From positions 1-32,530 of the forward strand of contig NZ_QJSM01000028.1 of NCBI RefSeq assembly GCF_003205235.1: 32,530 nt of DNA. The letters are read 5' to 3'. The notes beneath the pieces are model-generated. The model was not told the DNA's origin and made no database searches. It was given only the letters and a program-made list of their open reading frames with translations. Made by a program: the position numbers and the translations under genes. Shown one piece after another: positions 28,721 through 32,493 of the stretch. This DNA is from Thermoplasma sp. Kam2015. GTDB lineage: Archaea > Thermoplasmatota > Thermoplasmata > Thermoplasmatales > Thermoplasmataceae. Each line of letters begins with the position of its first letter. Within the stretch, counting starts at the first letter, position 1.

Positions 28721-28858
28721 TTATTGAAAAATAAATAATTTATAGGGGACGACCAGGAACCTCTGGCCTCCAGAGTCTTTGAAATCTATCACATATCTAT
28801 CCGGTGTACGCCGCGTTCCAGTCAATGGAAAGTGGATTCCCGAGACTGCGCCGGTCAT
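28721..28858 (-). CDS. Small protein of 45 residues between TauE-like and PurK genes
   Basis: A 45-codon frame starts at an ATG that overlaps the stop of the TauE-like gene (ATGA, 28855-28858) and ends 12 bases before purK. The protein starts [14 protein letters not shown], has a basic centre (TRRTPDRY) and ends in a hydrophobic-aromatic stretch (FLVVPYKLFIFQ). Codons are of the local type (AGA, AGG, ATA). No family is recognised. The ATGA coupling favours a real gene. Against it, the last codons overlap the likely purK TATA box, and the frame is short enough to occur by chance. Confidence 0.5.
   Translation of the reverse strand: MTGAVSGIHFPLTGTRRTPDRYVIDFKDSGGQRFLVVPYKLFIFQ
28731..28743 (-). 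promoter_or_regulatory. TATA box of purK
   Basis: The minus strand reads ATAAATTATTTAT, centred near 28735, about 27 bases before the purK ATG. Confidence 0.45.
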
Positions 28859-29631
28859 CGGAATGATAATGCAACCGTATAGGCGGTCTTCAGTGTGACG
28901 AAGAGAATTATCACGATGATTAGCAGGCGGACCTTTCTGCTGTCAAATCTGTGCATCATCAGGGATCCTGTCAAACCTCCAGCCACCCCACCGACCAGTA
29001 CTATTATCCAGAGAATGTAGTTAACGCCCCTGAGTATTGCAAGGTATGACATGAAGCCCGATGCCGACGAAAAGAGTGCTATGAATGCGGATGTCCCGGC
29101 GATCTTCTTGTAATCAGTTTCCATGAATGTGAGAACGGGCAGTATGATCATGCCGCCTCCAACCCCAAGCAGACCTCCCAGGAATCCAGCCAGGGCACCT
29201 ATGAATATTCCCGTTATAGCTCCGTTTATGCCGGTCAAAACGGCATTCTTTCTATCGCTCTTTCGCCCCCTTATTAGGTTGAACAGCGTGTAGGAGAGGA
29301 ATATGACGAATATTATGAGGAGATATTTTCTCGGCGTATGTACTCCCACCATAGCCCCAACTGGCGCCATTATCACGGCCGGTATGAGGAAGATCACGCC
29401 GATCTTCCAGATGATGAAATTATGCTTTGCATTGTTTGCCGTTGCGCTGGAGAGTGAGAAGACGTTAAGCAACAATCCTGCGGCCGCTGCGATCGAGAAA
29501 GGTATGCCAAAGGAATAGTAAATCGGTATGAGAGTATTGGCTGCACCAACCCCAGATATGGCAAATAGAGCTGAGAGTATCCATGTCAATATGAGTATTA
29601 TTATATAGAGTGCCCCAAACATAGGCATCAT
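28855..29631 (-). CDS. TauE/SafE-family membrane transporter
   Basis: This 258-residue protein has seven to eight membrane helices and the internal repeat of the TauE/SafE (COG0730) family. The first repeat has [21 protein letters not shown] (about 18-38) and the second [19 protein letters not shown] (about 149-167). Members export sulfite, sulfoacetate or other organosulfur anions. The substrate here is unknown. Its start overlaps the stop of the FmdE-like gene (ATGA) and its stop overlaps the 45-residue gene, so the three are translationally coupled. Confidence 0.9.
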
Positions 29632-30239
29632 TTCCGGCCATAGTAATCTGGCTTGCAGACGAATTTACCATTGAGCACCTTTATATCGGACTCGTAGGTG
29701 TATTCGCCGCATATTTCGCATTTTACCTTAGATCCGTCCTTCTTTACAGGTTTGAACTTGAAATCCTGGATCTCGGCATATTCAAATATATCCTCATCAG
29801 GCAGGCCTGCGATCCATTCAAGGACCGGATCTATAGCCTCGGAGGGGATTTCAGAGGGTTCCATTCCCTGCTTTCTGTATTTGAAAAATTCGGAGGCTCT
29901 TACATTTAGCTCGTCCATGAAGCTGTTTCGCACATGGACACGTATAGCTTTACCACCTGGCCTGTATATTATGATTGCAAGCTTGCCGTATCCGAGAAGC
30001 GAGAACAGACCTTTCCCATATGTACATCCAGTGGAAGCCTGAACTCCATCGTTGAAACAGCCGTTCATATCCTCTTCGGACATCTCAGAAAGTAGAAATG
30101 TCCTGTGATCTTTCTCCTTATCCAGCTTCGCCAGCTTAAGTGCATAGGCGCCGGCCCTGTAACCCATCGGCATATACGGGCACTTGTGCCCGTGAAACTC
30201 AAACGCCCATTCAGGAATACCGAACTCAAGTCTTTCCAT
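29628..30239 (-). CDS. FmdE-like protein with C-terminal zinc ribbon
   Basis: This 203-residue protein belongs to the FmdE family, named after a subunit annotated with formylmethanofuran dehydrogenase. Thermoplasma is not a methanogen, so that name gives no function here. The conserved core has [16 protein letters not shown] (His16, His18, Cys20) and [17 protein letters not shown] (Cys61, Cys72), a likely metal site. The C-terminus adds a ribbon with C174/C177 and C195. A structure of a T. acidophilum member of this family exists, to my recollection. The gene leads an operon with a TauE-like transporter and is divergent from an ArsR-type regulator, which suggests metal- or sulfur-related regulation. 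Confidence 0.88.
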
Positions 30240-30260
30240 TCTGTTTCACCAACACCATAA

Positions 30261-30284
30261 TCAAATAGTTATATTTCTATTTGA
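30261..30284. promoter_or_regulatory. Palindrome 1 in the fmdE / arsR promoter region
   Basis: TCAAATAG (30261-30268) and CTATTTGA (30277-30284) form a perfect 8-bp inverted repeat with an 8-base spacer. It covers the predicted core promoter of the fmdE operon, 22-45 bases from its ATG. An ArsR dimer binding here would block that promoter. Confidence 0.6.
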
Positions 30285-30308
30285 CTATGACAAATATTCT
30301 CATAGTCA
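30282..30308. promoter_or_regulatory. Palindrome 2 in the fmdE / arsR promoter region
   Basis: TGACTATGA (30282-30290) and TCATAGTCA (30300-30308) form a perfect 9-bp inverted repeat with a 9-base spacer. It overlaps palindrome 1 by three bases and ends just before the arsR TATA box, over the expected BRE position. This suits autoregulation by the divergent ArsR protein. Confidence 0.6.
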
Positions 30309-30313
30309 GAAAA

Positions 30314-30322
30314 CTATATATT
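30314..30322 (+). promoter_or_regulatory. TATA box of the ArsR-type gene
   Basis: CTATATATT is centred about 28 bases before the ATG at 30346, immediately next to palindrome 2. Confidence 0.5.
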
Positions 30323-30345: not shown

Positions 30346-30663
30346 ATGGAATCAACCTGCAGGATAATAAAGCTCAGGAACACCGATCTAAACGCCTATG
30401 AGGGCAGTGAAAGGATACTCGAAGCCCTTGCCTCAAAGGTCAGACTTGCCATTCTCGATCTGATGATTCAGTACGATGAGGTCTGCACTTGCGAGCTGGT
30501 TCCGGCACTGAATCTTTCGCAGCCAACCATAACGGTGCACCTGAACAAGCTGTATGATGCAGGTATAATCGAAAAGAGGGAGATCAAAAAATTCACGTTC
30601 TATCATATCAGGCCTAAATATAGGGAACTGGTGGAAACGGCGATAAGACTAGATAAAACATAG
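30346..30663 (+). CDS. ArsR-family transcriptional regulator
   Basis: This 105-residue winged-helix protein belongs to the ArsR/SmtB group, which usually represses metal or sulfur genes and releases DNA when its ligand binds. The core is ALASKVRLAILDLMIQYDEV, then CTCELVPALNLSQPTITVHLNKLYDAGIIEKREIKKF. Cys47 and Cys49 (VCTCEL) sit at the start of the recognition unit, as in the CxC metal site of ArsR, and Cys5 could be a third ligand. Sensing of a soft metal or a thiol-oxidising signal is therefore plausible but unproven. It faces the FmdE-TauE operon across two palindromes and probably controls it and itself. Confidence 0.88.
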   Translation: MESTCRIIKLRNTDLNAYEGSERILEALASKVRLAILDLMIQYDEVCTCELVPALNLSQPTITVHLNKLYDAGIIEKREIKKFTFYHIRPKYRELVETAIRLDKT

Positions 30664-30886
30664 CAGTGTGTGTGATGTAAAAGGGTTCAGAAATGGAGCA
30701 TTATTTCCCAATTAAAATAAAAATCTTCGCATTTAAATCCAGCCCTATCAATTTTATCCATTCGCATAAATTTTATACAAGTCAGCCCATACCAGTCTCG
30801 GATTGTGGCTATCATCGGAGTTGTTAAATTCTGTTAAAATAAACTGTTAAATTGGCTAACAGCGGTTGAATGCGGTCAATTGTGGA
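30664..30886. other. AT-rich gene-free stretch
   Basis: No gene, RNA or clear operator was seen. The heptamer TGTTAAA occurs three times in 30822-30851, probably only because the stretch is AT-rich. Confidence 0.3.
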
Positions 30887-31177
30887 TTATGTAGTTTCAT
30901 CAACCATTAGTATATTATATTTATCGATTTGAATATATATCGGTTCATCGTCTCCGTAGCTTACTTTAACAAAGTCTGCAAATAAGTATGGCTCATATTT
31001 CTTTTTAGTTCGTAGATAATCTCTATTAGGGTGTGAGCTTTCTGCTAATCTATCACAAATTGTGTCGTAATCGATGTATTCGATATCGTATGCCTTTGTC
31101 TTAAACTTCGCATATTTCAATCTCTTCGCAACGCTTTCTCTGTCTATCGGCTTTATATACGGGTTATCTACAAACAT
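30887..31177 (-). CDS. Orphan open frame of 96 codons, possibly a gene fragment
   Basis: The frame encodes a charged, Tyr- and Asp-rich protein starting MFVDNPYIKPIDRESVAKRL, with no membrane segment and no family I can name. It has no visible ribosome-binding site at the ATG. The same frame stays open for about 30 further codons upstream without a good start (reading YLSEHELPTDYIFLIDLPQ just before the ATG), which suggests it was once part of a longer protein. It lies in a zone with other decayed coding sequence. It may be a horizontally acquired fragment. Confidence 0.4.
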   Translation of the reverse strand: MFVDNPYIKPIDRESVAKRLKYAKFKTKAYDIEYIDYDTICDRLAESSHPNRDYLRTKKKYEPYLFADFVKVSYGDDEPIYIQIDKYNILMVDETT

Positions 31178-31205
31178 TTGTGGTAAGTCAATCAGAAAGA
31201 TATAA

Positions 31206-31391
31206 TCAGTTGGTAGTTCGTGTTCTGATAGGTATTTCGTGGTTTTGAGAAAAAAAGCCTTCTCTGGGAGCAGTTATGGTCTCATTAGAACGTATATATG
31301 ATTCAATGGCTAGTCTGGCTATCTGGACTGCCTTTTTTCCGATATCAAGGTCAATGCTTAATCCTGGATTGTTCATGATAATATGATTCAA
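31206..31391 (-). pseudogene. Remnant of an AMMECR1-family gene (N-terminal part)
   Basis: The 61-codon frame contains IGKKAVQIARLAIESYIRSN followed by ETITAPREGF. This lines up with the first helix of archaeal AMMECR1 proteins (G-x-x-x-V-x-x-A-R-x-A-I-E-x-Y then I-x-x-P). The rest of that family, including the LRGCIG motif, is missing: the frame stops after TRTTN. A run of seven T follows the codons for GF, and slipping one base there would join the frame to the orphan frame downstream. The match is short, so the family call is tentative. Confidence 0.4.
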
Positions 31392-31452
31392 ATTAAGATA
31401 ATAAAGACGTGCATATTCTGTTCATTTGCATCCTGGATATCTGAAATACAGC

Positions 31453-31584
31453 TCAATTTAATGACAATAATGAAATAACATGTCCCAACGCTGGAGATCT
31501 TACTTTCCATATATCTATCCCTAAACGATTGATGCTGTCCACACTTTCCCTTTCCAACGCATAGATTCTGATGTAAAGCCATTT
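31453..31584 (-). pseudogene. Possible remnant of a DUF58-type gene (C-terminal end)
   Basis: A 44-codon stretch with no start codon reads KWLYIRIYALERESVDSINR and continues LGIDIWKVRSPALGHVISLL before a stop. The pattern, a helix rich in Arg/Glu, then LGIDI and a final helix, resembles the C-terminal ends of DUF58 proteins. It starts right after a stop codon, so nothing upstream supports it. The call is weak. It is listed because it is the most protein-like reading of this gap; the rest of 31392-31778 shows no gene. Confidence 0.25.
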
Positions 31585-31778
31585 CTAAAATTATGAGATA
31601 ACCATCATCTTTGCCTTAATGCCTATATTTGAACTGCTATATACTTGAGAAGCAATATATGATGATAAAACTAGGATAAGATATACAGATAGAAGAAGAA
31701 TCATGAATCAGAAATAAAAATAAAACTTGAAGCTAGATCGACTTTTGATCGGATTTCTTTATATCAGCCTTCGTTGAT

Positions 31779-32135
31779 TCATGCAAGTAAAGAAGGATTA
31801 TCGTTGAGCTTCTTTTTCAATTCTTTCTGTAGCTGTTCTGCCGTAAGGCTTTTTACAACTTCTTTGATTCCTGAAACATCTGGATGCGTTATGGCGTTCC
31901 ACAGGCAGGCCACGGTACAGTTATTGCAGCCAACCATGCAGTTTTCGGGGTACATGACCACTGCTTTATGCCTGTCGAAATCATAACCGAACACATTTCT
32001 CTTTTCTCCGCAGGTGACAACACACATGCCGCATCCAGTACATTTATTCTCATCGATAACAGGCTCCCAGTGAATTGTGGATCTGGAAATACCATGCCAC
32101 ACTGCGAATTTATTCTGCTGTTCGATCTCAGTCAT
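31779..32135 (-). CDS. Dicluster 4Fe-4S ferredoxin-like protein 1
   Basis: This 118-residue protein should carry two 4Fe-4S clusters and act as a cytoplasmic electron carrier or as a subunit of a redox complex. Cluster one uses KCTGCGMCVVTCG (C32, C35, C38, C42). Cluster two uses CMVGCNNCTVAC (C66, C70, C73, C77), with an extra residue in the first spacing (C-x3-C-x2-C-x3-C). The motif WHGISRSTIHWEPVIDENKC before cluster one is shared with the next gene, so the two are duplicates. The usual Pro after the last cysteine is Leu here. Its ATG overlaps the stop of the second ferredoxin gene by 8 bases, so they are coupled. Confidence 0.9.
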   Translation of the reverse strand: MTEIEQQNKFAVWHGISRSTIHWEPVIDENKCTGCGMCVVTCGEKRNVFGYDFDRHKAVVMYPENCMVGCNNCTVACLWNAITHPDVSGIKEVVKSLTAEQLQKELKKKLNDNPSLLA

Positions 32136-32493
32136 TTTTTATCGCCTCTAAATGTACCGAGTGATCAGGGAATTTATCAATCCTCTCCTGCAGCTCATGT
32201 TTTACCTCTGGAAATATCTTGTATTTTAGGATAGCATCTTTCACGTATTTCTTTGGGTCATCCGGAAAGCTAATCGCATCTTCTGGACATAGTTTTCCGC
32301 ATGTAGTACATCCTATCACACATTTTCCGGGATTTCCCACAAGTGGCATATTCCTCGATCCATCCCACCTGAACACATCATTTCCACAGGTCAATAAGCA
32401 CATTCCACAGCTATCACATTTTGATTCATCAATTATAGGGTACCAGTTGAACAGACTTCTGTCCACACCATGCCATGATTTCTGTCCGCCCAT
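32128..32493 (-). CDS. Dicluster 4Fe-4S ferredoxin-like protein 2
   Basis: This 121-residue paralog is the first gene of the pair. Cluster one is KCDSCGMCLLTCG (C26, C29, C32, C36) and cluster two CVIGCTTCGKLCPEDAI (C58, C62, C65, C69, followed by Pro). It shares the N-terminal WHGVDRSLFNWYPIIDESKC with its neighbour. Proteins with this WHG...W.P.ID lead are, to my knowledge, known from sulfur-metabolising archaea and bacteria, but the partner enzyme is not in the window. AT-rich sequence upstream (32494-32530) probably holds the promoter. Confidence 0.9.
   Translation of the reverse strand: MGGQKSWHGVDRSLFNWYPIIDESKCDSCGMCLLTCGNDVFRWDGSRNMPLVGNPGKCVIGCTTCGKLCPEDAISFPDDPKKYVKDAILKYKIFPEVKHELQERIDKFPDHSVHLEAIKND

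Follow-up and report, generated by a model that had tools for sequence, protein, structure and literature searches.

A predicted ArsR operator between fmdE-tauE and arsR in a Thermoplasma genome

Divergent promoters of fmdE-tauE and arsR

The window analyzed here, a contig of 32,530 nt (C28) from a Thermoplasma genome of 1.79 Mb (labelled G000), contains a 106-bp intergenic region from which fmdE (start at 30239, minus strand) and arsR (start at 30346, plus strand) diverge. The identities of FmdE, TauE and ArsR were all confirmed by Pfam, and since the end of fmdE overlaps tauE by 4 bases, these two genes are read as one operon:

28855-29631, minus strand: tauE, a TauE/SafE-family permease (PF01925, 2.2e-37; ORF coordinates)
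29628-30239, minus strand: fmdE, a two-domain FmdE protein, orthologue of T. acidophilum Ta1109 (PDB 2gvi) (PF02663, 2.2e-28; 2gvi, 2.3e-118)
30346-30663, plus strand: arsR, an ArsR/SmtB repressor of 105 aa with Cys5 and Cys47-Thr-Cys49 (PF01022, 4.3e-13; NF033788; cysteine alignment)

Over 203 residues, the FmdE of another Thermoplasma, G082, shows no difference from T. acidophilum Ta1109, the protein of PDB 2gvi. In G198, G043 and G082 a 317-aa gene, an NAD-dependent epimerase by profile in G198, follows arsR within about 60 bp. This gene is absent from the window, where positions 30664-31770 are occupied instead by an AT-rich stretch of about 1.1 kb, whose orphan 96-aa ORF (30887-31177) had no match in Pfam or NCBIfam. 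At the contig end, two overlapping genes (31779-32135 and 32128-32493) encode small, similar 4Fe-4S ferredoxin-like proteins.

Two perfect inverted repeats lie in the intergenic region. The first (IR1) has 8-bp arms, TCAAATAG at 30261-30268 and CTATTTGA at 30277-30284, around an 8-bp spacer; the second (IR2) has 9-bp arms, TGACTATGA at 30282-30290 and TCATAGTCA at 30300-30308, around a 9-bp spacer. They are centered at 30272.5 and 30295, respectively, and overlap at 30282-30284. When the intergenic region was dinucleotide-shuffled 20,000 times, 652 of the shuffles contained a perfect repeat of at least 8 bp (spacer of at most 9), 167 contained one of at least 9 bp, and just 4 contained two repeats, one of them at least 9 bp; these figures are somewhat flattering, since the spacer limit was chosen to fit the finding. 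The whole window holds eight perfect repeats of at least 8 bp with a spacer of at most 9, and IR1 and IR2 are the sole overlapping pair.

Upon inspection, a single half-site word, 5'-TATTTGAnTATG, accounts for all of the arms. It occurs at 30256-30267 reversed (H1), at 30278-30289 (H2) and at 30301-30312 reversed (H3); counted by eye, H1 shares 11/12 bases with H2, and H3 shares 10/12. H1 and H2 make up the 8-bp repeat and H2 and H3 the 9-bp repeat, H2 being common to both, so that the nested palindromes result from a single half-site repeated three times, in reverse, forward and reverse orientation. With the probable core promoter elements, the features of the region are:

30256-30289, no strand assigned: proposed ArsR operator, H1 and H2 in opposed orientation on either side of the fmdE TATA box (12-10-12), containing IR1 (30261-30284) (half-site and motif matches)
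30256-30267, plus strand: half-site H1, CATAATCAAATA, left arm of IR1 (9/10 to TAxAxTCAAATA)
about 30269-30276, minus strand: probable fmdE TATA box (AAATATAA on the minus strand), centered in IR1 (from sequence; TATATTT conserved in four Thermoplasma)
30278-30289, minus strand: half-site H2 (TATTTGACTATG on the plus strand), common to IR1 and IR2 (9/10; four-Thermoplasma alignment)
30301-30312, plus strand: half-site H3, CATAGTCAGAAA, weaker, right arm of IR2 (30282-30308), beside the arsR promoter (7/10; poorly conserved)
about 30308-30322, plus strand: probable arsR BRE/TATA (AGAAAACTATATATT) (from sequence; CAGAAAA(C/T)TATAT conserved in four Thermoplasma)

The fmdE TATA box was placed according to the usual archaeal promoter spacing. 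The arsR start codon follows the BRE/TATA by about 25 bases, and the arsR transcript may therefore be leaderless. A first-pass annotation of this DNA had reported perfect repeats of 8 and 9 bp with a three-base overlap, which are indeed present and are rarely equalled in shuffles. It had also described their arms as different in sequence, which is mistaken given the common half-site, and had them covering both core promoters; the probable fmdE TATA box does lie inside a repeat, but the arsR BRE/TATA-like sequence starts where IR2 ends.

As a yardstick independent of motif training (see below), we used the published core of ArsR/SmtB operators, TAxAxTCAAATA-xx-TATTTGAxTxTA, a bacterial 12-2-12 operator given for arsRBC, cadCA, smt, ziaA, czrAB and nmtA in PMC6555750. 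H1 and H2, in inverted orientation, each match the half-site of this core at 9/10 and are two of the six single half-sites in the window that do so. The best two 12-2-12 matches in the window, 30264-30289 and 30256-30281, reach 15/20 each. When spacers of 0-14 were allowed, two half-site pairs in the window reached at least 16/20, both of them here, the best at 18/20 with a spacer of 10 bp where the core has 2. With half-sites at 9/10 but a 10-bp spacer, the half-site is thus classical by this core and the layout is not.

The divergent gene pair was aligned from four Thermoplasma. In the order of the window's own genome, G198, G043 and G082, the arms match by eye at 8/8, 7/8, 7/8 and 6/8 positions for IR1 and at 9/9, 7/9, 6/9 and 5/9 for IR2, the less conserved repeat; one IR1 change in G043 is compensated. 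Both TATA-like boxes are retained in the alignment, as is CTATTT(G/A)ACTATG; CATAGnCAG is retained less well. Because the arms mismatch in the three relatives, neither perfect palindrome is conserved as such, and we rejected the perfect palindromes, present in one of the four species, as the conserved unit. By the earlier annotation's own check, recurrence of the repeats in relatives with the same gene pair, the perfect palindromes fail, but a degenerate candidate ArsR operator occupies this place in all four.

A motif from acr3/arsR promoters

Homologues of ArsR occur widely in the class, with matches at E<=1e-5 in 195 of 400 genomes drawn; many of the top-scoring ones sit in operons with ACR3-type transporters. 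From 42 loci examined, 36 upstream regions of arsR-containing (acr3/arsR) operons outside Thermoplasma were taken as a training set. Five Thermoplasma loci and the fmdE-tauE-arsR locus of G122 were left out beforehand; the separate acr3 locus of G122 was kept. A simple one-site-per-sequence search for a 36-bp motif returned taTCAtATCATaAtATtTTAATATGACAaTgTgATt, which scores above 8 bits in 21 of the 36 regions. For eight of the 15 regions that fell short, the fetched locus contains a site scoring 23.9 bits or more at a different position, either upstream of the region used or at a different gene; for the other seven it contains nothing that reaches 9.3 bits. Run as a sequence model against 117 genomes of the order, the motif matched 25 sites at E<=1e-4, spread over 21 genomes. 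Seventeen are training sites or identical to one and eight lie outside training (G405, G412, G288:C76, G128, G222, G351, G309 and G360), the G222 and G351 sites being near copies of that of G240. An ACR3-like gene is present at 24 of the 25 loci, and the motif is therefore an ars operator in a comparative sense; the 25th (G128:C7:76081) lies about 1.6 kb upstream of the ArsR of its contig, beside a 429-aa transporter-like ORF. The inner dyad of the motif is TCAnAT-N12-ATnTGA; in the training sites 87.5% of its cells pair, and no slid version exceeds 61.7%. The arm columns of this dyad showed no covariation beyond shuffles (223 of 500 as high; pairing, 225 of 500), and an outer dyad is weak (covariation score in 8 of 500 shuffles, pairing in 72 of 500, with G-T counted as a pair).

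The best place for this motif on either strand of the 32.5-kb window is 30259-30294 in the fmdE orientation, at 12.5 bits against 26-43 bits for training sites; the opposite strand there ranks second (9.4 bits), and the third match scores 8.0. Within the window the sequence model gives 30259-30294 E values of 0.017 and 0.026; across G000 the site reaches only E 1.1, behind eight better rows (seven places). Its motif score was reached by 2 of 2000 and 1 of 1000 shuffles of the intergenic region, and the score at the orthologous place by 0, 3 and 6 of 1000 in G198, G043 and G082, respectively. With the TATA columns masked, leaving the arms only, the window's score was reached by 29 of 2000 shuffles, and those of the four species by 16, 7, 16 and 8 of 1000 (own, 16). 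The better orientation varies, being that of fmdE in the own genome and G198 and the opposite in G043 and G082. In G122, which belongs to another genus and has fmdE-tauE-arsR in one direction, a 19.9-bit site outside training precedes fmdE (0 of 1000 shuffles). Two members of the family, G075 and G182, carry fmdE-tauE but gave no ArsR hit anywhere in the genome; their fmdE promoters are without the site, with shuffle-like scores of -3.0 and -1.8 bits (293 and 328 of 1000). In G075 a 102-aa ORF (L065 2943-3251) separates fmdE from tauE, and no ArsR adjoins. Distant fmdE loci (G041, G161, G304, G070 and G045) are without this motif; at three of these the ArsR is of a different kind and carries LCPC.

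Two further candidate targets were rejected. The arsR-promoter side had no motif match (best, -12.5 bits), and IR2, which is also absent from the 51 sequence-model matches, was discarded as a second full operator on arsR; the acr3 locus of the own genome (C5) has no site either (-4.3 bits; the G043 acr3 locus, -8.9). As a genome-wide site, CTATG-N8..14-CATAG proved uninformative, with 38 places against 32 for the reversed control. TCAWAT-N12-ATWTGA occurs at five places in the own genome against one for its control. Its four other places lie between the 3' ends of proC-like and Rieske-like genes, just past the 3' end of a 342-aa ORF, on the start codon of an alcohol-dehydrogenase-like gene, and close to the 5' end of a 230-aa ORF, with a second TauE-like gene starting about 260 bp downstream of the site (genes named by eye); because of these locations we treat them as probably due to chance. 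The last is at G000:C26:74129-74152 (L148 1630-1653), and the TauE-like gene, also named by eye, is at L148 1912-2679.

The ArsR protein and the fmdE neighborhoods

The window's ArsR scores over the curated family cut-offs of NF033788 (62.4 bits; cut-off 55) and PF01022 (49.3 bits; cut-off 22). Its Cys5, Cys47 and Cys49 form the pattern of arsenite/cadmium sensors, an alpha-3 Cys-x-Cys plus an N-terminal Cys, and all three are present in 38 of 45 aligned rows (the window's ArsR included). Five of the remaining seven rows are without the N-terminal Cys only, some perhaps through N-termini cut by our script, and two are without the Cys-x-Cys pair. These two are the acr3-linked ArsRs of Thermoplasma (C5 of the own genome and C18 of G043), in which the pair is replaced (YAQ; CTQ) and whose promoters are without the ars operator motif. 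At both loci an acr3-like gene, under the ACR3 cut-off, is divergent from the ArsR paralogue (G000:C5, L062 1121-2824; G043:C18, L063 91-1781). Neither G082 nor G198 has an ACR3 match at E<=1e-5, and each has a single ArsR match. In the tree examined for a single origin of the fmdE-linked ArsRs, that of G122 has no firm place.

The name FmdE comes from methanogenesis, yet many FmdE proteins occur in organisms that do not produce methane. In the paper on PDB 2gvi (PMC2954224), only 13 of 208 family genes lie beside the methanogenic enzyme, metal-ion transporters are among the neighbors, and the function is left open. We collected 29 fmdE loci, 27 of them different (L071 and L072 repeat L033 and L034) and some on short contigs, and searched them for neighbors by phmmer at E<=1e-3. 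A TauE-like gene is present in 24 of the 29 (absent from L043, L074, L077, L081 and L085) and an ArsR-like gene in 12. The ArsRs of L040, L044 and L046, from other Thermoplasmata, are of a different kind with LCPC at the same helix, and constitute a second association of fmdE-tauE with Cys-x-Cys ArsRs; those near fmdE in L073, L077 and L082, on the Bacteroidota side, are without the pair. Profile searches identified ACR3 beside fmdE in L039 (367.8 bits; cut-off 282.8), ArsM (330.8 bits; cut-off 263) together with ArsR adjoining a TetR-fmdE-tauE run in L082, and ArsP_1 permeases in L046 and L073. These ars neighbors were picked by eye from 13 loci, and so are a lead and not a test. A small DUF6951 protein (PF22263) is a recurrent neighbor of fmdE-tauE in distant Thermoplasmata (L041 878-1207, L045 1064-1393 and L046 2209-2559).

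Interpretation and relation to known ArsR/SmtB systems

Taken together, these data make it likely that the region carries one ArsR operator of ordinary ArsR/SmtB half-sites, symmetric around the fmdE-tauE TATA box and accompanied by a weaker third half-site at the arsR promoter, where ArsR would act as a repressor that a thiol-binding metal releases. The site is real and very probably regulatory, and appears to be mostly of a known kind, an ArsR operator with an archaeal layout and an unexpected target. We predict that ArsR from the divergent gene binds at H1 and H2 around the fmdE TATA box; because IR1 is centered on this likely TATA box, bound ArsR would exclude TBP/TFB at fmdE. The arsR box has no more than H3 at its edge, so that repression of arsR would be weaker or would depend chiefly on protein spreading along the three half-sites; ArsR would thus control its own gene more weakly. 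Arsenite or a similar thiol-binding metal ion, bound at Cys5, Cys47 and Cys49, would then cause release of ArsR and transcription of both units. The first-pass annotation had offered two unlike sites, for two regulators or for one ArsR with different affinity, and separate control of the operon and arsR. A regulatory site in the divergent promoter with ArsR as its likely binder is retained from that reading; the idea of one ArsR with different affinity would fit the operator proposed here, for which a second regulator is unnecessary, and separate control of fmdE-tauE and arsR is possible, with a good operator on the fmdE TATA box and the weaker H3 by arsR.

An alternative that we consider unlikely, although it keeps a real chance, accepts the operator and changes the signal: ArsR would sense sulfane sulfur or thiol oxidation in the manner of BigR/SqrR, FmdE-TauE would handle sulfur compounds, and arsenic would play no part in Thermoplasma. 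Some ArsR repressors and some members of the TauE family act in sulfur metabolism, the NCBIfam BigR model NF040642 matches the window's ArsR at 7.1e-7, though with 29.2 bits against a membership cut-off of 155, and the Bacteroidota-side ArsRs near fmdE are without Cys-x-Cys. However, acr3-linked ArsRs have the same three cysteines (38 of 45 rows), the operator is that of acr3 operons, and fmdE is found near ACR3 in L039 and near ArsR and ArsM in L082, all of which argues against this alternative. It is quite improbable that there is no operator at all, and that back-to-back AT-rich archaeal core promoters, chance palindromes and conservation of TATA/BRE elements alone explain the region. The most conserved blocks do include both TATA-like boxes, and both the arms-only shuffles and the genome-wide E value of 1.1 are what such a region might give; against this stand the rarity of two such repeats in shuffles, a pair of matches to the published half-site that is the best of 32.5 kb, and the failure of the fmdE promoters of G075 and G182, which are without ArsR, to score. 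Two unlike sites for two different regulators, suggested by the different perfect arms and centers of IR1 and IR2, are very improbable: all arms are one half-site, 11/12 and 10/12 alike, that fits the published ArsR/SmtB half-site, IR2 is the less conserved repeat, and two different proteins would compete for H2, as it is common to both. A transcribed hairpin (terminator or leader structure) is extremely improbable despite the perfect repeats, as these lie upstream of both probable transcription starts, form a stem that is not G+C rich, and have arms that diverge among relatives, where no more than one change is compensated.

The operator of this predicted arsenite-type ArsR would supply fmdE-tauE with a signal that can be tested, and would point to a possible substrate for FmdE, a protein with a solved structure and no assigned function. 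We tentatively entertain the further idea that FmdE-TauE is an unrecognized ArsR-controlled metalloid module, in which FmdE, with its thioredoxin-like core and zinc finger, would hand thiol-bound arsenic or a similar species to TauE for export, and to which sensor and operator would have moved from acr3 in Thermoplasma; it is a genuine possibility, though not the outcome that we would expect. Bearing on such a move, G082 and G198 have their single ArsR at fmdE-tauE, and the acr3-linked ArsRs of the own genome and G043 have neither Cys-x-Cys nor the operator. A metalloid role of FmdE-TauE is worth testing, and we regard its link to arsenic genes as a more interesting lead than the operator; the motif in turn is a way to read ArsR regulons in Thermoplasmatales.

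Among the matches listed in a literature search whose coverage mostly leaves out subscription journals, we recognized no description of an fmdE-tauE-arsR operon or of a Thermoplasmatales ArsR operator. The regulator itself resembles CadC of S. aureus pI258 (PDB 1u2w; sequence match, 2.8e-6), with Cys47-x-Cys49 aligned to ELCVCDI of CadC. CadC also has an N-terminal Cys. In contrast to CadC and the ArsR As(III) sensors, the present protein is archaeal and has a shorter N-terminus and a predicted ligand. With the acr3-arsR systems of other Thermoplasmatales it shares the ArsR cysteine pattern, a like recognition helix (mostly (S/P)QPT) and, in the promoter, the TCAnAT-N12-ATnTGA dyad, which spans 24 bp and encloses a TATA-like box; the site here differs in that it is a weaker match and is proposed to control fmdE-tauE. 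With published ArsR/SmtB operators (PMC6555750), it has in common the half-site TCAAATA/TATTTGA, the overlap with a core promoter and the adjoining gene of its own regulator, whereas its partner genes are fmdE-tauE and no known metal pump, a probable archaeal TATA box lies between the half-sites, and a third half-site is present. Finally, the half-sites are 10 bp apart and not 2, so that the TCA/TGA centers stand 21 bp, or two helical turns, apart around the TATA box, as they do in the dyad of the motif, a spacing that departs from the bacterial 12-2-12 layout.
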